A stretch of 38,881 bases of DNA from Planctomycetota bacterium (GTDB taxonomy: Bacteria; Planctomycetota; Phycisphaerae; FEN-1346): the NCBI GenBank assembly GCA_016872895.1, contig VGYT01000006.1:1-38881 (forward strand). Reading direction: 5' to 3'. The notes beneath the pieces were generated by a model, which saw only the letters and a program-made list of their open reading frames with translations, was not told the DNA's origin and ran no database searches. The position numbers and the translations under genes are program-made. Shown here one piece after another: positions 20,872 through 37,463 of this stretch (positions are counted from its first letter, which is position 1; the number at the start of each line of letters is the position of its first letter).

Positions 20872-23267
20872 GGCTTGGATTCGCCTCCGACTTTCCATTC
20901 CAGGATGCCGCCCGAAAAGCCCGCCTGGAGGTCCACTTCCAGGCGCAGGCCGTCGGCCTCTACGGGCGTGAACGTGACGCGGTTGTACTTGTCCCTGGCC
21001 GCGCCGCACTCGGACGCGCCCTCGACGGGCTTCCACTCGCCGCCGACGCGGGCCAGAATGCGCCACGCCCGCGGCGCGCGGCAGCCGCCGCGGCCCGTGT
21101 CGTCGAACCAGTACACCTCCGTGGCGGAGACCTTCGCGGGCCGGGCGAAATCATACTGCACCCACTCCGTCTTGCCCCTGCGGTCCCACCAGGTGAGGCG
21201 CGGAACCTCGTGGTCGCCGGAGTTCGCCGGCTCGATTTGGTCGTTCAGGGCCTGGACGGTGTCGGCGTGCCAGCAGTGCGAGGCGCTTGCGCGGCTGGCG
21301 GCGGCGATGGTGGGCTTGAGAGTTGGCGCGGCCAGGTCGGCCTTCTCGGGCAGCCAGACCATCATCTCGCCCGCCTCGCGGTGGTCCCAGGCGTAGTAGG
21401 GGATGAGCACGAGGTTGGCGGTTTTCGGTTCGGTCCCATCCGGCTGGCGCACCTTGGCCTTCGCCCGGATGACCGTCAGGCCGCCCAGGAGGTCGGCGCG
21501 GTGCTCGGCCGCCAGGGCAGCGTCGGGCGGCATGAAGGCGAACCGGAGGTCCTTGCCGTTGTCGGCGGCCTCGGCGCAGTACACGACGGGCCCGCGCTGG
21601 ACGGCCACGCGGCCGGCGTCGGCCTGGACCTTCGGATGGGCGTACACGCGGCGGACGGGCATCGGCAGGTCAAGGTCCACGCGGTCGCCCTTGCGCCATC
21701 TGCGCGAAAGAAACAGGTAGCCCTTGCGGACGTCCAGCGTGCGAACCGAATCGCCGTTGAGTTTTACAACCAGGGATTCTTGCGGCGGAGGATCGTAGCG
21801 GTAGAGGTCGTCGGCCGACGGCTCCGAGCGGGCCCACGCGGGCACGCGCAGCGCCAGCGTCAGCGCCCCGGCCGGAGCGCCTTCCACCGTTATCGCCACC
21901 TTGCCGTCCCACGGGTAGCGGGTCTCCTGCGCCAGCGCGACGGGGCCGGCCTTGTGCGCGACGCGGGCCTTCCCTCCTGCGTAGAGGTTCACATAAACAG
22001 ACTCGTCGTCGTGGGCGTACGCGAGGCCGGGCAGCGAGGCCATGAACCGCACCACGTTCGGCGGGCAGCACGCGCAGCCGAACCACGCCTGGCGGTGATG
22101 GTTGCCGCGGCTCGCCAGGGGGTTCACGTAGAAGAACCTGCGCCCGTCGAGCGAGACGCCCGAAAGAAACCCGTTGTAGGCCACGCGCTCCACCACGTCG
22201 GCGTACCGCGCGTCGGCCGTCAGGAGGTTCATCCGGTGGCTGAAGAGCGCCAGGCCGATGCCCGCGCACGTCTCGCAGTAGGCCGACAGGTTCGGCAGTT
22301 CGTAGGCGTCGCCGAAGGCCTCGCCTGAGTGGCGCGCCCCCACGCCGCCCGTCAGGTGCATCTTCTTGGTGGCCAGGTTCTCCCAGATCGTACGGAGGGC
22401 CGTGAGGTAGGCGGCGTTGCCGGTGCGTGCGGCCACGTCGGCGGCGCCCGAGTAGAAATACATGGCGCGGACGGCGTGGCCGGCCGGCTCGGTCTGCTCA
22501 ACCAGGGGCTTGTGGTCCTGGGCGTAATCTCCGTAGAGCGTGCGGCCGCAGGCGTTGTGCCCGTGCTCGCCGATGAAGAAGGCCGCCAGGTCCAGGTACC
22601 GCCGCTCGCCGGCGGCCTCGGCCAGTTTCACGAGGGCCAGTTCCGGCTCGGGGTGGCCTTCTATGTCGTGGCGCTTGTCGGGGCCGAAGATGGAGTCGAT
22701 GTGGTCCGCCAGGCGGACGGCCACGTCCAGGAGCGTGCGCCTGCCGGTTGCGCGGTAGTGGGCCACGGCAGCCTCGATGAGGTGCCCGGCGCAGTACATC
22801 TCGTGCTTGCTGCGGCAGTCGGTGAAACGCTTATCAAGCGTCTTGTTGACCGTATAGAACGTATAAAGATATCCGTCCGGTTGCTGGGCGGCGGCAATGC
22901 GTGCGATGACGGCGTCAAGATACTTTTCCTGCTCGGCGTCGGGGTGGGCTGCAAGCGCATATGCGGCGCCCTCAACGACTTTGTACACGTCGGAATCATT
23001 GAAGAAGATGCCCTCGAACTTGCCTTCCATCCTTCCGGCGGCCTTGTCGAAGTTCGTCAGGCGGCCCGTGTCCTCGCACATCTTGAAGTTGTGCGGGATG
23101 GAGGCGGTGCGGTTCGTCTCGAGGCGCGGCGTCCAGAAGGCGTCGGCGAACCGCACGTCCGTAAAGGGCACGGCCGAGAGGCGCTTCAGGGCGGGCTCGG
23201 CGGCGCAGGCGGCCCCGGCCGAGGCAACAACCAGGCCGACGGCCAGCAGTCTGGCGGCGTTCATCAT
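20868..23267 (-). CDS. GH127 (DUF1680) family glycoside hydrolase, secreted
   Basis: PFTDVRFADAFWTPRLETNRTASIPHNF, DSDVYKVVEGAAYALAAHPD, FGCACCPPNVVRFMASLPG; signal peptide; discoidin-like C-terminus. Confidence 0.88.
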   Translation of the reverse strand: MMNAARLLAVGLVVASAGAACAAEPALKRLSAVPFTDVRFADAFWTPRLETNRTASIPHNFKMCEDTGRLTNFDKAAGRMEGKFEGIFFNDSDVYKVVEGAAYALAAHPDAEQEKYLDAVIARIAAAQQPDGYLYTFYTVNKTLDKRFTDCRSKHEMYCAGHLIEAAVAHYRATGRRTLLDVAVRLADHIDSIFGPDKRHDIEGHPEPELALVKLAEAAGERRYLDLAAFFIGEHGHNACGRTLYGDYAQDHKPLVEQTEPAGHAVRAMYFYSGAADVAARTGNAAYLTALRTIWENLATKKMHLTGGVGARHSGEAFGDAYELPNLSAYCETCAGIGLALFSHRMNLLTADARYADVVERVAYNGFLSGVSLDGRRFFYVNPLASRGNHHRQAWFGCACCPPNVVRFMASLPGLAYAHDDESVYVNLYAGGKARVAHKAGPVALAQETRYPWDGKVAITVEGAPAGALTLALRVPAWARSEPSADDLYRYDPPPQESLVVKLNGDSVRTLDVRKGYLFLSRRWRKGDRVDLDLPMPVRRVYAHPKVQADAGRVAVQRGPVVYCAEAADNGKDLRFAFMPPDAALAAEHRADLLGGLTVIRAKAKVRQPDGTEPKTANLVLIPYYAWDHREAGEMMVWLPEKADLAAPTLKPTIAAASRASASHCWHADTVQALNDQIEPANSGDHEVPRLTWWDRRGKTEWVQYDFARPAKVSATEVYWFDDTGRGGCRAPRAWRILARVGGEWKPVEGASECGAARDKYNRVTFTPVEADGLRLEVDLQAGFSGGILEWKVGGESKP

Positions 23268-23310
23268 GGTAGGCATCCTTCCCTGGCCCGGCCAGGGCGA
23301 GCGGCCGGCG

Positions 23311-23405
23311 GTGCGCTTGCCGCAGGCATGCTTTCGCAACGGCGCGAAAGCATGGCACCAGGCGCTTGCCGCAGGCACGCTTTCGCAACGGCGCGAAAGC
23401 ATGGC
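23311..23405. repeat. Tandem pair of a 49-bp unit containing the hairpin ATGCTTTCGC-aacggc-GCGAAAGCAT
   Basis: Units at 23327-23356 and 23376-23405, each preceded by GCGCTTGCCGCAGGCA; one arm base differs in the second copy (CACG). Confidence 0.85.
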
Positions 23406-23447
23406 ACCCGGCCGTGAGCGACGTATCCGCCGCTCGGCCAGGGGCCG

Positions 23448-25772
23448 TCACTTCGCCTTCGCCGGGACGACTTCAACGATGCCGACGTCAATGTATTGAC
23501 CGCCCCCGGTCTGGCGGCAGTGGACGGCCAGGACGTTCTTGCCGGGCCTGAAAGCCGCCCTGGCTTCGGGCGCGAGCGGCTGTTCGTCGTAGTCGGTCGC
23601 GAAGCCCTTCAGTTGGCATGCCAGGACGCCGTTGATGTAAACCTCGGTATCCTCATCATGGTGCACGCGCAACTGGAGCGCCGAGAAGTCGCCGGCGGGC
23701 ACCTGGAACTCGCGCCGCAGCCAGATGTCGGTCGTCCGCCACTCGGTGCGGACCACGGCGCCGGGCGTGCCCTTGGTGCCGAAACCGCTGCGGCCTTTCT
23801 TCCATGCCGAGTCGTCAAAGGCGGGCTTGGTCCAGTCGCCGGCGGGCTTCTCCGTTACATAGCGCCATTCCTGCGGCGACTCCTCTGCCGTAGGAACCAC
23901 GCTCCGCACGACGGGGGCGGGCGGTACCTTGGAGAAATCGCCGCGGTTGACGGCCGCAAGGCGCTCAACGTCGCCCTTGACCACCCGGTCGTAGGTCATC
24001 AGTCCGTTGCACTCTACTTCAACGTCGGTCGTCTGCGTGTACACGGCGGCGCACAGGCCGGCGGAGTCCTTCAGGTCGTACACCGTTCGCAGAAGTTTTT
24101 CGTAGGTGCGCGTCAGGTGCTCGGCGTCGGCCATGCCCTTGTAGCCCCACGATTCCTTCTTCCACAAGTGGCCCTGTACGGCCAGTCCCAGGCCGCCGAA
24201 CTCGCCCAGCACGGCCGCACGCTTTTCTTCCGTCGGCGGGCACTTGGGGTTGGGGTAACTGTGGATGTCGTGCACGTCGCCCACGCTCGTGTCGGTCCAG
24301 CCGGAAGCGTTATTGACGAGTCGCGACGGGTCCATGTTCTTCACCAGTGCGGTAAGGCGCTCGGTGTCAAACTGCCCCCACCCCTCGTTGAAGACCACCC
24401 ACATGATGATTGAAGGATGGTTGCGCAGGCCCTCAACCATGCGCACGAGTTCCTTCTCAAACTGCCTGCGGGCCTCAACCGCCGCCGCGTCATCCTTCGG
24501 GGTGGGCGGCAGGGGCTTGCCGTCGGGGCCGCGCCGCCGCTCCATGCCGTTTGAGCCGCTCGGCATGTCCTGCCACACGAGCAGGCCCAGGCGGTCGGCC
24601 CAGTAGTACCAGCGCTCGGGCTCAATCTTGACGTGCTTGCGGGCCATGTTCATTCCGAACTTGAGGGTCATCTCAATATCATAGCGCAGGGCCTGGTCGG
24701 TGGGCGCGGTGTAGAGGCCGTCGGGCCAGAAGCCCTGGTCCAGGAATCCCGCCTGCATGACGAACTTGCCGTTAAGCAGGATGCGCGTAACGCCCTGCGG
24801 GTCTTTTCCGATTTCCACCTTGCGCATGCCGAAGTAACTCTGCACGGCGTCGGTCTGGCCCAGGCGCACTTCCAGGTCGTAAAGGAAGGGCGAGTCGGGC
24901 GACCAGAGTTTTGGCTGGGGTATCCGAACCTCCAGCGGCGCATCGGCCGGCCCCGTCGCCTCGGCGACGGGCCGGCCGCCGTCCTTGACCACCGCCTTGA
25001 CCGCTGCCGATTTGCCTTGCGCCTGCGGTTGCACGTCCACGGTGATGCGCACGGCGCTGTTGTCAACGTCGGGCACGATCCTGATGCCGCCGATCCACTG
25101 CTCGGGCACCGGCTCCAGCCACACGGTCTGCCAGATGCCGGTGGTGGGCGTGTACCAGATTCCGCCGGGCTTGTGCACCTGTTTGCCGCGCGGCTGCGGG
25201 CCCGAGTCGGAAGGGTCCCACACCGCGACAACAAGTTCCTGTCGGCCGCCAGGTCTGAGCGCATCGGTTATGTCGCACGTAAACGAGTCGTATCCGCCGC
25301 GGTGCTCGCCCGCCTTCCTGCCGTTGACGAACACGGCGGCCTCCCAGTCAACCGCGCCGAAGTGCAGGAGCAGCCTGCCGCCCGCAAAGTCCGGCGGCAC
25401 GATGAACGTGCGGCGGTACCACAGCCGCTCCTTCTCGCTCACCTGCCTCATCACGCCCGACAGGGCCGCCTCGATGGGGAAGGGCACAAGGATCTGCCCG
25501 TCGAACTTCTCCGGCTGCGGGGCGTCCACGGGCAGGACCGCGTAGTCCCACAGGCCGTTCAGGTTGAGCCACCGCGGCCGGACCATCTGCGGCCGCGGGT
25601 ACTCCGGGTGCACCTTGTCGGGCGACACGTCCTTGGCCCATCGCGTCAGGAGGGGCCCCGCCGCCGGGGCCCACGCTGCCGACGCCGGCTGCACGCACGC
25701 CGCCGACACCCCCAGCACGAGCACCATCGGCCACACCAGCGACACGGCCGCATACCCTTTCGTCGCGCACAT
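23448..25772 (-). CDS. GH2 family glycoside hydrolase (beta-galactosidase-like), secreted
   Basis: PRPQMVRPRWLNLNGLWDYA, LWYRRTFIVP, FGAVDWEAAVFVNGRKAGEHRGGYDSF, HPSIIMWVVFNEGWGQFD; C-terminal beta-sandwich-like region. Confidence 0.88.
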   Translation of the reverse strand: MCATKGYAAVSLVWPMVLVLGVSAACVQPASAAWAPAAGPLLTRWAKDVSPDKVHPEYPRPQMVRPRWLNLNGLWDYAVLPVDAPQPEKFDGQILVPFPIEAALSGVMRQVSEKERLWYRRTFIVPPDFAGGRLLLHFGAVDWEAAVFVNGRKAGEHRGGYDSFTCDITDALRPGGRQELVVAVWDPSDSGPQPRGKQVHKPGGIWYTPTTGIWQTVWLEPVPEQWIGGIRIVPDVDNSAVRITVDVQPQAQGKSAAVKAVVKDGGRPVAEATGPADAPLEVRIPQPKLWSPDSPFLYDLEVRLGQTDAVQSYFGMRKVEIGKDPQGVTRILLNGKFVMQAGFLDQGFWPDGLYTAPTDQALRYDIEMTLKFGMNMARKHVKIEPERWYYWADRLGLLVWQDMPSGSNGMERRRGPDGKPLPPTPKDDAAAVEARRQFEKELVRMVEGLRNHPSIIMWVVFNEGWGQFDTERLTALVKNMDPSRLVNNASGWTDTSVGDVHDIHSYPNPKCPPTEEKRAAVLGEFGGLGLAVQGHLWKKESWGYKGMADAEHLTRTYEKLLRTVYDLKDSAGLCAAVYTQTTDVEVECNGLMTYDRVVKGDVERLAAVNRGDFSKVPPAPVVRSVVPTAEESPQEWRYVTEKPAGDWTKPAFDDSAWKKGRSGFGTKGTPGAVVRTEWRTTDIWLRREFQVPAGDFSALQLRVHHDEDTEVYINGVLACQLKGFATDYDEQPLAPEARAAFRPGKNVLAVHCRQTGGGQYIDVGIVEVVPAKAK

Positions 25773-26889: not shown

Positions 26890-26979
26890 GGAGAGGTGCC
26901 AGAGCGGTTGAATGGGCCGGTTTCGAAAACCGGTGTGGGCTACGGTCCACCGGGAGTTCGAATCTCCCCCTCTCCGCCA
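26890..26979 (+). tRNA. tRNA-Ser(CGA), CCA encoded
   Basis: GGAGAGG (26890-26896) pairs with CCTCTCC (26969-26975); anticodon stem/loop CCGGTttcgaaaACCGG; long variable arm; GGGAGTTCGAATCTCCC T-arm; discriminator G + CCA. Confidence 0.95.
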
Positions 26980-27458: not shown

Positions 27459-28039
27459 ACGCTTTCACATACATCATCGCGGGAGGAGACTACATCCGCG
27501 CGGGTGCGGCGTCGCGCCGCCTCAAGGAGCGCCTGGAGGCCGCCGGGGCGGCGCCCGACTCCGTCCGCCGCGCCGTCATCGCCGCCTGCGAGGCCGAGAT
27601 GAACGTCGTCGTCCACGCGCGCGGCGGGCGGATGGAGGCGCGCCTGGCCCCCGGCCGCATCGACGTGGAAGTCGCCGACGCCGGTCCGGGCATCGCCGAC
27701 GTCCCCCTGGCGATGCAGGAAGGCTACTCCACCGCGCCGCCCGAGGCGCGGGCGCTGGGCTTCGGCGCCGGGATGGGCCTGCCGAGCATCCGCCGCGCTG
27801 CCGACGCCTTCGCGATTGATTCCGCGCCCGGCAGGGGCACACGCTTGCGGTTCACGGTTTACCTCGGGGCCCGGTGCCCCGCCGCGGCGGGCGAAGGCGT
27901 GCGTTTCAGGGGCACCAGGATCATGCTTTCGCAACGGCGCGAAAGCATGGCGCCCCGCCGTCCCGGCCAGGGCGGGCCGTGCCGCCTGCCGTCCGGGCCG
28001 CCGCGAGGCAGCGCCGGGAGCGACGCGCCCGGAGGTTGA
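27455..28039 (+). CDS. ATP-binding regulator (anti-sigma factor/HATPase type)
   Basis: Overlaps the upstream stop (ATGA); AVIAACEAEMNVVVHA, DVEVADAGPGIADV, GFGAGMGLPSIRRAADAF, GRGTRLRFTVYL. Confidence 0.8.
   Translation: MNAFTYIIAGGDYIRAGAASRRLKERLEAAGAAPDSVRRAVIAACEAEMNVVVHARGGRMEARLAPGRIDVEVADAGPGIADVPLAMQEGYSTAPPEARALGFGAGMGLPSIRRAADAFAIDSAPGRGTRLRFTVYLGARCPAAAGEGVRFRGTRIMLSQRRESMAPRRPGQGGPCRLPSGPPRGSAGSDAPGG
27922..27951. repeat. Third copy of the ATGCTTTCGC-aacggc-GCGAAAGCAT hairpin, inside a CDS 3' end
   Basis: Same sequence as the 23327-23405 copies; read as IMLSQRRESMA near the end of the ATPase ORF. Confidence 0.85.
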
Positions 28040-28041
28040 AC

Positions 28042-28434
28042 GTGCCCAAGCGCATTCTCGTCGTGGACGACGACCCGGAGTTCCTCCAGGAACTCACGGA
28101 GAGGCTCCAGGCGCAGGGCTTCGATGTGGCGCCCGCCGACGGATACCAGGCGGCGCTGGCGGCCTTCGGCCGCGCGCGGCCGGACCTGGCCATCGTGGAC
28201 CTGATGCTTGAGCACCGCGACGACGGGTTCATGCTGTGCCATCACATCAAGAAGGCCGACCCGGCCATCCCGGTCATCCTGGTTACGGCCGTCACGTACG
28301 AGACGGGCATGGCGTTCGACGCCGCCGGCGAGGAAGAGCGGCGGTGGCTGAAGGCCGACGTGATGCTCGACAAGCCCGTGCGCTTCGAGGCGATCCAGCG
28401 CGAGATCGACCGCCTCCTGCCGCGGCTGGCGTAG
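28042..28434 (+). CDS. Stand-alone response regulator receiver domain
   Basis: KRILVVDDDPEFLQEL, LAIVDLMLEHRDDGFMLCHHIK, PVILVTAVTYE, VMLDKPVRFEAI; no output domain. Confidence 0.88.
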   Translation: MPKRILVVDDDPEFLQELTERLQAQGFDVAPADGYQAALAAFGRARPDLAIVDLMLEHRDDGFMLCHHIKKADPAIPVILVTAVTYETGMAFDAAGEEERRWLKADVMLDKPVRFEAIQREIDRLLPRLA

Positions 28435-30153: not shown

Positions 30154-30326
30154 GGTCGGCTTCGCCTCGCGCGGCAGCACGGACCCCCTGGCCGCGCGTC
30201 TGTTATGATACCCTTGCCGGCCGGCCGCCGCCAGCGTTCCTGTGTCTTGCTTGGCCTGCGTGGGATGAAGATGAATGTGAAAAGGGTGGACTTTTTTTTG
30301 GCTGGCGCGGAAGATGAAGCCGGGGC

Positions 30327-30366
30327 GGAGAGGTGCCGGAGCGGTCTATCGGGCCGGTCTTGAAAA
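30327..30366 (+). pseudogene. Truncated tRNA-Ser(UGA): 5' half only, ends just after the anticodon loop
   Basis: GGAGAGGTGCCGGAGCGGTCTATCGGGCCGGTCTTGAAAA matches the 5' half of the intact tRNA-Ser at 26890 with anticodon TGA; expected ACCGG anticodon-stem partner is replaced by ATTCTTT. Confidence 0.85.
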
Positions 30367-30483
30367 TTCTTTCTGCGGATAGCCGCAAGTCCTTGCCGTG
30401 TTTGCAATTACGTCTGTGGCGAGGACTTGTCGTCGTCCGGCGAATGCCGCCCGAACCGCAGGAATCCGCCGAAACCGCCCTTC

Positions 30484-30501
30484 CGGTTGTCGCGACAACC
30501 G
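30484..30501. promoter_or_regulatory. Perfect 18-bp palindrome CGGTTGTCGCGACAACCG
   Basis: Self reverse-complementary; flanked by a second pair GAAACC (30471-30476)/GGTTTC (30504-30509). Confidence 0.5.
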
Positions 30502-30611
30502 TTGGTTTCAGGTTCATCGAGCGGTAAACCCTTAGTTCTCTCGTGGTACCGCGCCCTTTCATGTTCCAGGCCGGCCGGTTATGATTGGTGGGCATCGCTC
30601 GGAGATGAACC

Positions 30612-32273
30612 ATGGGGCAGGGGATCAGGTGGGCCGGCATGCTTCTGCTGTTGGCGGCGGGCGTCTTGCCGGCGCGAGAAGGCGACCGGATTCAACGAGG
30701 CGAGATGGCCGGTTACCTGGTCGTGCCCAACGGGAAAGTCCCGGCTGCGTATGATGCCGGGTTCTCAATGTATGTGGCCGCCTGGCCCTTGTTGAAGGAC
30801 TATCCGGGGGACCGTTTTCAAACGGGGCTTTTCGGCACCTGGATGTTCGCTCAGTATGAGGGCCGCGCTCCCGCCAACCTGTATTCCGGTATAGAGGGCG
30901 GGCTGGGCTGGTGGCGCGACACTCGGTTCGCCACCGAAACGCCGAAGTTCATCATGGGCGGGGTGGCTCCGAACTTCGTCGAATGGGCCAACGGGCCTGG
31001 GGCCGGCAAGGGAAGGAACTGGAAGGAACCGAAAGGCCTCTACGGTGTGGCACAACTCAGTCCGTGGTTGCTCTGGCCCCCCGACGGCTTGAACCTGAAG
31101 CAGGGCGCCTGCGGCGAACTGTTCGGATACGGCTACCTGCCGCTACCCCTTACCAAGGCCAAACCCACCACCGCCGGAAAGGACGTTCCCACAGGCGACA
31201 ACAGTTGGACGTTGTTTCTGAATACGGGGAACTTCAAAGGCCCGGTGGCTTTTTTCACCCCCTTCTTCTGGTCTCGCGCCGCCGTGGTTGAGCCGCGCCT
31301 GAGCGGGATGCTTCTGGACAGCCGTCCCTCCGATCCCAACCGGGCCTTGCAGATGGAGACCCAGCATGTCCCCAGCGTTCAGGCGATGGACGCCAAGGGT
31401 GAGACCTATGCCCGAATCGCCCCCACATCGTTCCCCCGCGGGCCGAACGGCGACTCGGTGCTGGTGCATCGCATCACCTCCTATAGCAGGAAAGCGCTGT
31501 GGAATGCCGTGAAGACCTGGTTTGAAGGGGGCGCCCAGGCCAGCGGCGCCATCAATCCCGAAGGGGCCGTTGTGCACGACTTCAGCGGGCGCGGCGAAGC
31601 AACCTGGGAAATCTACACCGACGGAGCCCCCAAGGAGAAGAAGGCGCCTGTGGCTTGGGATTCTCTTGCGACCCCCAGGGCATTGGACTTGAACACCTTC
31701 GGCTACCGTTGGAATCACCAGGTGGTTGAGAAGACCGATTCCAGGAACGGCCCGCTGGCCACTCTCCCCGAGTACTTCCGCCTGGTGAATGACGGCGCCA
31801 AGAAGAAGGCGCGGTGGGTTCCGGTGCGGGCCGAAGACGTCCCGAAGGAAACGGGTCTCGTGCAGGTTCGTTTTGACCGACCCCGCGAGAATCGCCCCGA
31901 ACCCTATGTCACTCCTGATGATGCGGCGAGTTGCTGGAAGAAGCCCGGCCCCGCGGCCGGACCTTTTCAGTCGCACCTGGGTGACGGCAGCGTGGTGACC
32001 TACTACTGGTATCGCTTCGCCGACCAGCCCGCCTTGCTCAACGCCGACCTGACGAACGAGGAGCGCGAGGCCATGCAGGCGCGCGTGGAAAAACTCCACC
32101 GGAATTGGAGGAAGGACCGCGATTACCTGGCGCCGCCCACGGTCGGCAGACTGGCGGATGTTGACCCCGCCCTTATCGTCACTCCGCCGCCGGGACTGGC
32201 GGCGGGTTATGTCCCCATTGCCACTCGACAAGCAGCGAAGGAAGACTCGCCCAAGGGGGCCAAAGACAAGTGA
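30612..32273 (+). CDS. Secreted protein of unknown function, 553 aa
   Basis: Signal peptide MLLLLAAGVLPAREG; long clean ORF; ends LIVTPPPGLAAGYVPIATRQ. Confidence 0.75.
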   Translation: MGQGIRWAGMLLLLAAGVLPAREGDRIQRGEMAGYLVVPNGKVPAAYDAGFSMYVAAWPLLKDYPGDRFQTGLFGTWMFAQYEGRAPANLYSGIEGGLGWWRDTRFATETPKFIMGGVAPNFVEWANGPGAGKGRNWKEPKGLYGVAQLSPWLLWPPDGLNLKQGACGELFGYGYLPLPLTKAKPTTAGKDVPTGDNSWTLFLNTGNFKGPVAFFTPFFWSRAAVVEPRLSGMLLDSRPSDPNRALQMETQHVPSVQAMDAKGETYARIAPTSFPRGPNGDSVLVHRITSYSRKALWNAVKTWFEGGAQASGAINPEGAVVHDFSGRGEATWEIYTDGAPKEKKAPVAWDSLATPRALDLNTFGYRWNHQVVEKTDSRNGPLATLPEYFRLVNDGAKKKARWVPVRAEDVPKETGLVQVRFDRPRENRPEPYVTPDDAASCWKKPGPAAGPFQSHLGDGSVVTYYWYRFADQPALLNADLTNEEREAMQARVEKLHRNWRKDRDYLAPPTVGRLADVDPALIVTPPPGLAAGYVPIATRQAAKEDSPKGAKDK

Positions 32274-32293
32274 TTCATTCAAGGAGAATGCCG

Positions 32294-33463
32294 ATGAAAC
32301 CAACGAGTATCGTTCGCGCCGCACTGCCGCCGGCGCTGCTGGCCGCGCTGGCAATCGGGCTCACAACCGTATCGGCGGCAGAGAAGATCAGCATCGATCC
32401 GAAGCAGCAATTGCCGGGGCCGAACAACAAGGCGCCCGACTCCGGGAAACCGGTCAAGGTGTTCATCCTGATGGGCCAGTCCAACATGGTTGGCATGGGC
32501 AGGATTGCCGAGGGCAAGAACGCTGAGGGGTCGCTGGAAAATGCGGTCAAGGCGAAGAAGAAATACCCCTACCTTGTGGATGAGGGGGGCAACTGGTCGG
32601 AGCGCAAGGACGTCCGCTATGTGCGCGTCATGCAGGGCCGAGGCGGCGGTGGAATGCAGCAGTTCAACAACGAATGGATGACCGTCAAGACCTGTAGGAC
32701 CATCGGCCCGGAGTTTGGTATCGCGCATGTCGTGGGGGATGCCATTGATGCGCCGGTGCTGATCCTCAAGAGCTGCATCGGCAACCGGAGCCTGGGATGG
32801 GACCTGCTGCCGCCCGGCAGCGAGCGCTACCAGGCGGAAGTGACCGAGCGGAACGGCCAGAAGGTCACCAAGGTGTTTGCGGGCTACAAAGATCGGCCGG
32901 ATTCCTGGGTCATGGACCAGAGCAAAGGCACCGCGACGGAGCCACCGCCCTGGCTCGACAAGAATGGTAAGCCCATTGATTGGTATGCTGGCAAGCAATA
33001 CGACGACGATACTTCCTACGCGAAAAAGGTGCTTGCGGAACTCGACAAATACTACCCCGGGGCGCAAGGCTACGAGGTCACGGGCTTCTTCTTCTGGCAA
33101 GGTGAGAAGGACTGCGGCAACGCCGTGCATGCGGCTCGCTACGAGCAGAATCTCGTCCGTTTCATCAAGCAGTTGCGCAAGGATTTCAATGCTCCGGACG
33201 CGAAGTTTGTCCTTGCAACCCTGGGCGAAGCCACCAAGGGTAGCGGGGGCAATGGTGGAATGGTGCTCGAGGCCCAGCTCGTGGTGGACGGCAAGAGCGG
33301 GAAGTACCCGGAGTTCAAAGGCAACGTGGCCACGGTCTATTCCAACCCCATGGCGCAAGGCGGCAGCGGAAACGGTCACTACGGCGGCAAGGCCGAAGTC
33401 TATATGGACGTCGGGGAAGCCATGGGCAAGGCCATGGTCGACTTGCTGGAGAATAAGCCATAG
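32294..33463 (+). CDS. SASA/DUF303-type carbohydrate acetylesterase-like protein, secreted
   Basis: RBS AAGGAGA; signal peptide; VKVFILMGQSNMVGMGRI (GQSN block), GFFFWQGEKDCGN, GHYGGKAEVYMDVGEAMG. Confidence 0.85.
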   Translation: MKPTSIVRAALPPALLAALAIGLTTVSAAEKISIDPKQQLPGPNNKAPDSGKPVKVFILMGQSNMVGMGRIAEGKNAEGSLENAVKAKKKYPYLVDEGGNWSERKDVRYVRVMQGRGGGGMQQFNNEWMTVKTCRTIGPEFGIAHVVGDAIDAPVLILKSCIGNRSLGWDLLPPGSERYQAEVTERNGQKVTKVFAGYKDRPDSWVMDQSKGTATEPPPWLDKNGKPIDWYAGKQYDDDTSYAKKVLAELDKYYPGAQGYEVTGFFFWQGEKDCGNAVHAARYEQNLVRFIKQLRKDFNAPDAKFVLATLGEATKGSGGNGGMVLEAQLVVDGKSGKYPEFKGNVATVYSNPMAQGGSGNGHYGGKAEVYMDVGEAMGKAMVDLLENKP

Positions 33464-33489: not shown

Positions 33490-34521
33490 ATGATCGCAAA
33501 GACATTCTTGAGTATCGGTTTGATGCTGGCAGGGGTGGCAATCGGACTGGCAAACACATTGGTGGCAGAGGATGCCAAGACAGGGTCGCCGCCGCGGGCG
33601 CCAGCGGCCGAGAGCAAGTCGGTGAGAGAACTGCAGCAGGACTTCCTGAAACTGAAGTTCGGCCTGTTCATCCATTTCAATCTGGAAACCTTCAAGGGCG
33701 TTCAGTGGGTCGCGGGCTATCACAGTCCTGCGGATTTCAATCCGGGCGGCAAGGTTGACACCGACGCCTGGGCCGACGCGGCCGTGTCCGCCGGGATGAA
33801 GTACGCCGTGCTGACGGCCAAACACGTGTCGGGCTTTTGCCTGTGGGACAGCCAATACACCACCTACGACGTCATGAATCCTGACTGTCCGTACAAGCAG
33901 GACCTCGTGGCGCAGTTCATCAAGTCGTTCAAGAGCCGGGGCCTGAAGGTGGGACTCTACTACTGCTGGCGTCATCCGGGATTCAAGAGTGAGTTCAAGG
34001 TCCTGCCGCCTGAATGCGATCCGGCGACGCATTCCCTGGAAGAGCAGATCGCTTTCCAGAAGAAGCAGATTGCCGAACTGATCGAGAAGTACCCGGATGT
34101 CTTCTACCTCTGGAATGATGCGCTCGATCCGAAGATCATGCCCGCGGAGGAATCGCTGGCTTTCATCAGGGGATTGCGCGTGGACCTGCTCGCCAGTTCG
34201 AATTGGTGGGACTGGGGCAAGAAAGGCACGCCCTACGTGGACATCGCCGTGAAGGAGATGCGGCAGTTCCCGGAGAACAACACCGCCCCAGGCGAGACCT
34301 GCTGGTGCCTGGAACAGAAGTGGTTCTGGCAAGAGGGAGCCCGCCCCAAGACGGCCAGGCAGGTCATGGATCTCCTTGCCGCGGTGAACAAGCGGAACTC
34401 GAATTTCCTGCTCAACGTTGGCCCGAACAAGCAGGGCCGATTCGAGGAAGCCAGTGTCAAGGTCTTGGCGGAAGCCGGCAGACTGCGAGAGCCGAAGGCA
34501 GGGGAGTTCCCTGCGAAATAG
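33490..34521 (+). CDS. GH29 alpha-L-fucosidase family protein
   Basis: LKFGLFIHFNLETFKGVQW, AVLTAKHVSGFCLWDS, GLKVGLYYCWRHPGF, FLLNVGPNKQG. Confidence 0.88.
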   Translation: MIAKTFLSIGLMLAGVAIGLANTLVAEDAKTGSPPRAPAAESKSVRELQQDFLKLKFGLFIHFNLETFKGVQWVAGYHSPADFNPGGKVDTDAWADAAVSAGMKYAVLTAKHVSGFCLWDSQYTTYDVMNPDCPYKQDLVAQFIKSFKSRGLKVGLYYCWRHPGFKSEFKVLPPECDPATHSLEEQIAFQKKQIAELIEKYPDVFYLWNDALDPKIMPAEESLAFIRGLRVDLLASSNWWDWGKKGTPYVDIAVKEMRQFPENNTAPGETCWCLEQKWFWQEGARPKTARQVMDLLAAVNKRNSNFLLNVGPNKQGRFEEASVKVLAEAGRLREPKAGEFPAK

Positions 34522-34532
34522 AGGTGCCGAAG

Positions 34533-37463
34533 ATGATGAGGTCTCTGGACCGGCGACTTCCGCCTGGCCGGAACGTTTGGCACTGGCTGGTGTTCGTCGC
34601 GCTGGCGGGCGCGGCGAGTGTTCTCGGCGAGACCGTCGGCCATCAGGAGAATTCGGTCTCTCTGGCCGGAACCTGGCGGTTCCGGCTCGACCCCCAAAAT
34701 ACCGGCGTCGAAGAAAAGTGGTTCGCGGCAAAACTTGACGACTCAGTTACGCTGCCCGGCACGACCGACGCGAACCACAAGGGCGTCTTCAAGGACGAGA
34801 AGGCGGTCGACCGCCTCTCCCGCGTCTGGTACTGGAAAGGCCCCGCCTGGTATCAGCGCGACGTGGTCATCCGTGATGGCTGGAGGGGCAAGCGGATCAC
34901 CCTGCTGCTGGAGCGGACCAAGAACACCCGCGTGTGGGTTGACGACAAGGATTGCGGAGCCGAAGACACCCTCAGCGCCCCGCAGGTTTTCGACCTGACC
35001 CGCGCCATGACACCCGGCCGGCACACCATCACCGTGCTGGTGGACAACGCCAAACTGCCGCCGGTCGGGCCCTCCCACGCGGTGGACGAGCGGACGCAGA
35101 CCAACTGGAACGGCATCATCGGCCGCATGGAACTGCGTGCCACGGATCCGGTCTGGCTCGACGAGGTGCAAGTCTATCCGGACGTTGACAGGAAGCAAGC
35201 GACAATCCGGGTGGTGGTGGGCAACATCACCGGCCAGGCGGCATCGGGACGAATCGAGATCTCGGGCAAGAGTTGGAACGTGCCGTCCTCCGTCGCGTTC
35301 CCAGCCCAATCAGCGGAGGTCCGTGCCCCCCAAGAAAGGAACGAGATCACTTTCACCTACAAACTGGGCCAGGATGTTCCGCTGTGGGACGAGTTCAACC
35401 CGGCGTTGGTCCGCCTGGCGGTCTTGCTGAAGGCGAACTCAGCAGTGAAGAGTTTTGGCGACGAACGGGTTGTGAACTTCGGCATGCGGAAGTTCGCCCG
35501 CGACGGAAAGAGGCTGACGATCAACGGGCGGACCGTTTTCCTGCGCGGAAAACTGGACTGTTGTCTGTTCCCCGCCACTGGCTTTCCGCCCATGGACAAG
35601 GGCGAGTGGATTCGGCTGATGAAGATCGCAAAATCTTACGGCCTCAACCACTACCGATTTCATTCGTGGTTTCCGCCCGAAGCGGCGCTGGAGGCGGCGG
35701 ACGAAGTGGGGCTGTATCTGGCGCCCGAACTCCCGAACAAGAGCAGTCGTTTCGGGTCGCTGGATGCCCGCGAGCCAGGGGCGCGTTACAACGTGGACTA
35801 CCTCGAAGTCGAGAGCACCTCCTCCCACACGCCGCTGGCGAAGTATCTGCTCCGCGAGGCAATACTGATTTTCAAGGCCTACGGCAATCACCCTTCGTTT
35901 GCCATGTTCACGTTGGGAAACGAACTGGGGCGCACACCGGCCATGTATCAGATGGTCGCCTATTTCAAGGAGGTTGATCCCCGCCACCTCTACGCCCAGG
36001 GGGCTAACAATATGCACTGGGCGCCGAGTTTTGCCGAGGGGGACGACTTCTGGGTGACCTGCAAGACGGGCAAAGATCTTCCTGTCCGCGGCGCGTTCTT
36101 CCCAGGCGATTTTCCCGCTGGCGGCCACATCGACCACCGCCCGCCCTCAACCATGGTTGACTACAGCAAGTCGATCAAGGATGCGCCGGCGCCCGTTATC
36201 AGTCACGAAATCGGCGAGTTCGAGGTGTCGCCAGACTTCCGGGAAATCCCTAAGTACACCGGCGTGCTCAAGGCCCGGAACCTGGAGGTATTCCGCCAGC
36301 GGCTGGAGGACGCCAACATGCTGGACTTGGCGCACGACTTCATGCGAGCGTCCGGCGCCCTGTCGGTCATTTGTCATCGTGAGGACGTGGAGGCCGCCCT
36401 GCGCACGCCCGGATTCTCCGGTTTTCAACTGCTCGACCTGCAGGACTTTCCTGGTCAGGGGACGGCGCTGGTCGGCATGCTCAACGTGTTCATGGAGTCG
36501 AAGGGCCTGATCGAGCCCGACGCGTGGCGGCAATTCTGCTGCGAGACCGTACCCCTGGTGCTGATGGAGAAATACACCTGGACCACCGACGAAACCTTCG
36601 CCTGCGAAGTCAAGATCGCGCATTACGGCGCGGCAGACATCCCCAATGCCCGCGTGACATGGAGCCTCGGCGACAGCGCAGGTTCGGCGGTCGCGTCCGG
36701 CGCTCTGAGACCGCTGACGATCAGGCAGGGCGAGGTCTTTCCGGTCGGCCCGATTCGCGCGCCGCTTGGCCGGGTCCAGGCGCCCAGGAAGTTGCTGCTC
36801 ACGGTGGCGATCGACGGAACGCCGTATCGCAACGGCTACGACCTCTGGGTCTATCCGCCGAAAGTGGACACGAGCACGCCAAACAACGTCCTCGCCACAG
36901 ATCGTCTGGACGCGGCGGCGCAGAAGCATCTCAGCGACGGCGGCAAGGTCCTGCTGTTCCCCCGACACGAAGAACTCAAGCACTGCGTGAAGGGCGCCTT
37001 CCAGACCGACTTCTGGTGCTGGCCGATGTTCGCTAAAGGCGCCATGGATCGCAAACTCGAGCCGCCGCCGGGCACGCAGGGCTTCCTCTGCGATCCGGCC
37101 CACCCCGCGCTGGCGGAGTTCCCGACCGAGTTTCACAGCAATTGGCAGTGGTGGCGCATCGTGAAGAACGCCCGGCCCGTCATCCTGGACGAGACGCCTG
37201 CAGACTACCGCCCGATCATCCATGTCATTGATAACTTTGCCCGCAATCACAAACTCGGCCTGCTCTTCGAAACCCGTGTGGGTCAGGGCAAACTGCTGGT
37301 CTGCGCGAGCGACCTGCCGGCCCTTCAGGACCATCCCGAGGCGCGTCAACTGATGCACAGCTTGTTGAGGTATGTCGATTCCCCTGACTTCGCGCCCGCG
37401 GCGGCGTTGGATGGCGGGCTGTTGAAGAAATTGCTGCCGGGGGAAATAGATGGGAAGCCATGA
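34533..37463 (+). CDS. GH2-superfamily glycoside hydrolase, secreted
   Basis: SLAGTWRFRLDPQNTGVEEKW, WYQRDVVIRDGWRGKRITLLLERTKNTRVWVDD, NHYRFHSWFPPEAALEAADEVGLYL, GNHPSFAMFTLGNELG. Confidence 0.85.
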   Translation: MMRSLDRRLPPGRNVWHWLVFVALAGAASVLGETVGHQENSVSLAGTWRFRLDPQNTGVEEKWFAAKLDDSVTLPGTTDANHKGVFKDEKAVDRLSRVWYWKGPAWYQRDVVIRDGWRGKRITLLLERTKNTRVWVDDKDCGAEDTLSAPQVFDLTRAMTPGRHTITVLVDNAKLPPVGPSHAVDERTQTNWNGIIGRMELRATDPVWLDEVQVYPDVDRKQATIRVVVGNITGQAASGRIEISGKSWNVPSSVAFPAQSAEVRAPQERNEITFTYKLGQDVPLWDEFNPALVRLAVLLKANSAVKSFGDERVVNFGMRKFARDGKRLTINGRTVFLRGKLDCCLFPATGFPPMDKGEWIRLMKIAKSYGLNHYRFHSWFPPEAALEAADEVGLYLAPELPNKSSRFGSLDAREPGARYNVDYLEVESTSSHTPLAKYLLREAILIFKAYGNHPSFAMFTLGNELGRTPAMYQMVAYFKEVDPRHLYAQGANNMHWAPSFAEGDDFWVTCKTGKDLPVRGAFFPGDFPAGGHIDHRPPSTMVDYSKSIKDAPAPVISHEIGEFEVSPDFREIPKYTGVLKARNLEVFRQRLEDANMLDLAHDFMRASGALSVICHREDVEAALRTPGFSGFQLLDLQDFPGQGTALVGMLNVFMESKGLIEPDAWRQFCCETVPLVLMEKYTWTTDETFACEVKIAHYGAADIPNARVTWSLGDSAGSAVASGALRPLTIRQGEVFPVGPIRAPLGRVQAPRKLLLTVAIDGTPYRNGYDLWVYPPKVDTSTPNNVLATDRLDAAAQKHLSDGGKVLLFPRHEELKHCVKGAFQTDFWCWPMFAKGAMDRKLEPPPGTQGFLCDPAHPALAEFPTEFHSNWQWWRIVKNARPVILDETPADYRPIIHVIDNFARNHKLGLLFETRVGQGKLLVCASDLPALQDHPEARQLMHSLLRYVDSPDFAPAAALDGGLLKKLLPGEIDGKP

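Follow-up and report, generated by a model that had tools for sequence, protein, structure and literature searches.

A tRNA-Ser(UGA) gene that stops directly behind its anticodon loop raises the question whether the contig carrying it was wrongly assembled or whether the break marks the edge of an integrated element. The window analyzed here is the whole stretch of 38,881 nucleotides, which makes up an entire contig (C6) of a draft, metagenome-type planctomycete assembly (5.07 Mb, 579 contigs, 88.65% complete), and the break lies at position 30366. The tRNA half in front of it (40 nt, GGAGAGGTGCCGGAGCGGTCTATCGGGCCGGTCTTGAAAA, with the anticodon TGA at 30361-30363) matches an intact tRNA-Ser(UGA) from a genome of the same family at 98% identity over 42 nt. 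ARAGORN and Rfam call no tRNA at the half; the only tRNA they report in the window is an intact tRNA-Ser(CGA) at 26890-26979. The first-pass annotation described an intact 5' half, an absent 3' half and unrelated sequence behind the cut. The first two statements hold: searches with the T-arm and with CCTCTCC yield no tRNA-Ser(UGA) 3' half downstream of the cut in the window, the sole T-arm-like match (one mismatch) being part of the tRNA-Ser(CGA) and CCTCTCC occurring no more often than expected by chance. The sequence behind the cut, however, is not unrelated but a conserved element end (Table 1).

The same annotation reported a lower GC content and a switch in gene content at the cut, and both are borne out. 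GC drops from 68.8% before 30366 to 61.8% behind it, whereas every 8.5-kb stretch of the left part has at least 66.0%. Genes for a PIG-L protein and for regulators are found on the left, and a SASA esterase, a GH29 fucosidase and a GH2 enzyme on the right. The last of these probably starts near 34.5 kb, because its listed open reading frame (ORF) overlaps the fucosidase gene. Left of the junction, at 22900-23500 and 27850-28050, similar peptide-like stretches (LSQRRESMAPG / FRNGAKAW) appear in ORF translations on both strands, which suggests a short dispersed DNA repeat.

Table 1. Features at and behind the tRNA break (window positions).
Feature	Position	Strand	Basis
Displaced tRNA-Ser(UGA) 5' half, acceptor 5' strand to end of anticodon loop	30327..30366	+	Direct reading and match to intact tRNA
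Conserved left end (attP arm) of integrative element, about 140 nt	30367..30501	+	Recurs after tRNA 5' halves in Planctomycetota
Inverted motif CAAGTCCT (30386-30393) / AGGACTTG (30422-30429), putative arm-type site	30386..30429	+	Sequence, alignment, right-end sequences
Four near-tandem GAA(N)CCGCC-type repeats, spacing about 9-11 nt, putative arm-type sites	30441..30479	+	Sequence
Palindrome CGGTTGTCG/CGACAACCG, two inverted GGTTGTCG half-sites	30484..30501	.	Sequence comparison
Cargo: ORF of 553 aa, no Pfam or NCBIfam match	30612..32273	+	
Cargo: sialic acid-specific acetylesterase-type protein, SASA (PF03629)	32270..33463	+	
Cargo: alpha-L-fucosidase, GH29 (PF01120)	33490..34521	+	
Cargo: GH2 glycoside hydrolase (PF02837, PF02836), ORF as listed	34203..37463	+	

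A misjoin at a repeated tRNA, arising in assembly (the serious alternative named earlier) or in binning, would account for much of this: the assembly is a fragmented draft, tRNA halves are repeats, and composition shifts at the junction. Yet the junction recurs elsewhere. In one relative (G001:C294) the same tRNA-Ser(UGA) half is followed by a similar end, with 78% identity over 136 nt and a match that crosses the junction (the query of this first search, 30250-30460, also returned ordinary tRNA matches). Using 30362-30530 as query against 397 genomes of the class, matches with E≤0.001 were obtained in 24 genomes. Most copies of the end directly follow a tRNA 5' half cut after the anticodon loop, the exceptions being a few chance matches and a few degenerate or missing halves. 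The halves represent Ser-UGA, Ser-GCU, Thr-UGU, Arg-CCU, Arg-UCU, Met-CAU, Lys-UUU and Cys-GCA, together with Thr-CGU and a Sec-like UCA that were assigned by eye. Two of the independent genomes carry half and end on single multi-Mb contigs (G226, which is CP054190.1, and G076:C1), and sequence across the junction is conserved in pairwise comparison. Because the same junction recurs in independent assemblies, single-contig chromosomes among them, we reject the misjoin as extremely improbable: the broken tRNA-Ser(UGA) at 30366 is genuine. The window's own genome contains a second such left end, located after a CAT half on contig C179 (G000:C179; L122, L201); no intact tRNA identical to that half is present among the loci of this genome.

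Aligned to each other, the ends fall into two length classes that have in common AATT after the anticodon, CCGC(N)GAACCGC-type repeats (the form in which the four repeats of the window are kept) and a palindrome (CGGTTGTCGCGACAACCG). In relatives, a GTAAGT-like motif, as in the inverted motif of the window, also closely precedes the rebuilt tRNA. Judged from the sequence, the inverted motif and the repeats are putative arm-type sites for an integrase. Searching 84,980 species genomes with the palindrome pattern CCGGTTGTCGCGACAAC gave 56 loci, with matches to a tRNA 5'-half profile upstream of 17 and downstream of none. All 17 are in records titled Planctomycetota or Phycisphaerae, and the loci from other phyla lack a half. 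A viral origin was considered and dropped: the six hits of the pattern in IMG/VR lack both a tRNA half and the conserved end. Two unusual halves were also encountered. One (L124, G146:C275) combines an Arg-type body (GCCCGTAGCTCAGCAGGATAGAGC) with a GCT anticodon loop (TTTGCTAA) and might have arisen as a chimera when an element integrated at a non-cognate tRNA. The other (L060, G024:C310) is a tRNA-Ser(UGA)-like half that includes a few stem bases beyond the anticodon loop and is followed by unrelated sequence without the conserved end; perhaps it belongs to a different island family.

Six relatives reveal the other side of the element. In each of them an intact tRNA with the same anticodon is situated on the same strand, 2.3 to 28.4 kb downstream of the half: Thr-UGU in G076 (28.4 kb) and G165 (2.3 kb), Ser-UGA in G045 (12.7 kb), Met-CAU in G082 (16.1 kb), Lys-UUU in G117 (6.8 kb) and Arg-UCU in G182 (6.2 kb). 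Up to the cut the half and the intact copy are identical at 37-38 of 38 positions; beyond it the left copy continues into the element end and the right copy into a proper tRNA 3' half. The 40 nt upstream of the tRNA agree at only 10-20 positions between both copies in five of the six, and therefore the rebuilt tRNA has a leader borne by the element. Leaders are similar at both ends in G045 (31/40), as expected if a second element has entered an already rebuilt tRNA. The expectation that an integrase restores its target tRNA had been set against the lack of a 3' half here. That lack is real for the window, whose contig includes neither a complete cognate tRNA nor an integrase, but relatives restore the tRNA at the far end of the island. 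The right end of the present island, with rebuilt tRNA and integrase, would accordingly be located beyond 38881.

The paired tRNAs also bear on two other readings of the break. An intron or other insert that leaves tRNA-Ser(UGA) functional, its 3' exon lying further downstream, is suggested by the insertion point, as bacterial group I introns sit in the anticodon loop, and by T-arm-like hairpins that follow the conserved end in G001 and G182. Against this, the window contains no matching 3' half or exon, and neither a self-splicing group I core nor any other Rfam intron is found in it at gathering score. Copies with the T-arm-like stretch diverge immediately after it, and in the six relatives the 3' half is part of a second, complete tRNA 2-28 kb away; we give this reading next to no credence. 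The shared T-arm-like GGTTCAAGAAAC followed by divergence had also suggested a tiny (about 200 bp) SINE- or cassette-like element, an idea dropped in view of the intact cognate tRNAs kilobases downstream. The second reading is an island of the usual orientation, which carries a 3' half, with the 5' half left behind by a later rearrangement. Such islands are certainly commoner: the Islander counts cited here list a 3' tDNA fragment for 3760 of 3919 islands and a 5' fragment for 159 (PMC4383910). Nevertheless, in all six bounded relatives the 5' fragment precedes the intact tRNA on the same strand, and the leader difference between the ends in five of them points the same way, which makes the usual orientation scarcely tenable for this family.

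An ORF located just inside the right end of the islands in G076 and G082, between the half and the rebuilt tRNA and divergent from the latter, encodes a tyrosine integrase. The family scores 32.3 bits against PF00589 (curated cut-off 27.1) and matches the phrog_1 integrase at E 1.8e-26; no sequence relatives of solved structure are found at E up to 1. In G076 the integrase gene overlaps at its end with an HTH_17 excisionase-like gene, and G082 has two integrases, 71% identical, at Met-CAU and Thr-UGU. Homologues number 14 (L211-L223 and L205, the latter being the own-genome copy, cut by a contig end) from 198 genomes of the class. A tRNA divergent from the integrase start is present at 11 of the 13 with sequence on both sides, at gaps of 134-361 nt; no tRNA was called at L218, and L221 has one in another orientation. 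Nearly all 14 keep the catalytic RPKT or KT, LRHTFR, MGH and Y(V/I)EE. The nucleophilic Tyr is retained in 13, and L219 has Asn in its place along with a broken N-terminus. None of the 14 has the canonical first catalytic arginine (Arg I, TGxRxxE-type), the corresponding stretch reading GNxD, mostly GGFGNTD. The integrase of CTnDOT, IntDOT, is likewise a tyrosine recombinase reported without the canonical first catalytic arginine; it belongs to another family and uses another target site.

Both ends share a further motif. At 9 of the 11 integrase loci with a divergent tRNA, GGTTGTCG is found as a direct pair 74-77 and 62-65 nt before the tRNA; at L219 the copy at 74 is intact and the second one altered. 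For comparison, GGTTGTCG is present within 250 nt in 14 of 91 tRNA contexts examined, and the intact tRNA-Ser(UGA) of G001 has no such pair upstream. The motif is thus inverted (as the palindrome) at the left end and direct at the right end, so that both ends of one element carry the same putative protein-binding site. Besides single islands we observed, in G006 (L189, G006:C105), a pair of Cys-GCA left ends in tandem at a distance of 8.8 kb, and in G076 (L193) a fragmentary integrase directly before the left half. Together with the similar leaders of G045 (L195), these point to an accretion of islands in tandem. The 28-kb island of G076 (L193/L194) contains several large ORFs that, by their sequence, resemble RND or heavy-metal efflux components.

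The recurrence of the end after tRNA halves, the pairing of halves with intact tRNAs, the adjoining integrase and the shared GGTTGTCG, all observed in relatives, together with the GC drop at the junction itself, lead us to consider position 30366 as the attL of an integrative element, that is, a genomic island with sugar-degrading cargo, which belongs to a planctomycete family and resides in tRNA-Ser(UGA) (probability about 0.94). The earlier suggestion of an island edge at an anticodon-loop attachment site is thus supported. The tyrosine integrase would recombine the element into the anticodon loop of its target, with the attP of the element carrying a copy of the 5' half of that tRNA. Integration would strand the native 5' half at the left and rebuild a full tRNA at the right from the 5' half of the element and the native 3' half. 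In the excised form, attP would then have the leader and the 5' half of the element (...CTTGAAAA) linked to TTCTTTCTGCGG. Given its element-borne leader and its position divergent from the integrase, the rebuilt tRNA probably owes its promoter to the element and would be transcribed from there.

It might be argued that the window shows only a remnant, the genuine left end of an island that has since lost its right half and integrase by deletion and is now immobile and incomplete. The visible 8.5 kb right of the junction are without integrase, and decay does happen in this family, since the integrase between half and rebuilt tRNA is decayed in G045 and decayed fragments also lie beside tRNAs in G001. 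On the other hand, the integrase of relatives sits at the far end, so that none is expected near the left end; we therefore hold a remnant to be less likely than not, though far from negligible. The only integrase of this family in the own genome (G000:C21:27706-28772; L205, L209) has lost its N-terminus at a contig end and is possibly the right end of one of the two islands of this genome. Its assignment to the island at 30366 was considered and proved impossible, as the contig stops inside the gene. The adjoining ORF of 591 aa (L209:10944-12719) looks HerA/FtsK-like by eye. No tRNA-Ser(UGA) is present in the assembly, and a pattern search for it recovered only Ser-GGA and Ser-GCU; this would be consistent with a contig that breaks off at the right end, even though several other tRNAs are missing as well. 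An empty site next to PIG-L homologues was not found in relatives.

How can one family use so many tRNAs? The 5' anticodon stem reads ..GG(T/A) in 27 of 29 target halves, compared to 12 of 44 intact tRNAs of the window's genome (Fisher p 1.3e-8, indicative only, as targets are phylogenetically non-independent and half stems were read by eye). Going by these stems, the family appears to recognize ..GG(T/A) rather than the anticodon, and hence to accept many tRNAs. Most simply, the integrase would bind the arms of the anticodon stem, and the anticodon would fall in the crossover region, where the element-carried 5' half matches it. More tentatively, a single integrase lineage without Arg I may read the ..GG(T/A) stem of almost any tRNA, carry the 5' half needed and place host tRNAs under an element promoter shared with the integrase; we regard this as possible rather than probable. 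If true, island integration would directly control the host supply of nine or more tRNA species.

A suspected assembly error thus becomes a mapped island boundary. It also provides a search signature for islands in Planctomycetota: a tRNA half, the end of about 140 nt and the GGTTGTCG palindrome on one side, and a direct GGTTGTCG pair 74 and 62 nt before the rebuilt tRNA on the other. Replacement of the 5' half and leader of a tRNA is rare in bacteria and systematic, at many tRNA genes, in this planctomycete family. Two questions can now be put to the test: how a single integrase family copes with whatever anticodon lies in its crossover region, and whether host tRNA expression comes under the control of islands.

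As a kind, 5'-fragment islands are known and rare; what is new is a planctomycete family that displaces 5' fragments at nine or more tRNA species. A limited literature search found no paper on a planctomycete family of 5'-half islands that share an end and occupy many tRNA genes, nor is such a family described in the Islander text consulted (PMC4383910). According to the same text, anticodon-centred sites occur in 2083 islands, and the 5'-fragment islands resemble ours in their tyrosine integrase, the split anticodon, the 5' fragment upstream and the regenerated tRNA downstream on the same strand. The difference with those 159 is that here one integrase family with a common end serves nine or more anticodons within one bacterial class. 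Integration in the anticodon loop with restoration of the tRNA is shared by classical 3'-half tRNA islands and prophages; in these, however, the element brings the 3' half and the native promoter is kept, whereas the planctomycete family replaces the 5' half and the leader. This promoter-side situation is seldom met in bacteria according to a review (PMC8371274). The archaeal pTN3-like integrases treated there are similar in that the rebuilt tRNA comes to lie behind the promoter region of the integrase. Those elements are archaeal plasmids with the attachment site inside int, so that integration splits the gene; the planctomycete family, in contrast, consists of bacterial chromosomal islands in which the integrase gene stays intact and divergent from the rebuilt tRNA.
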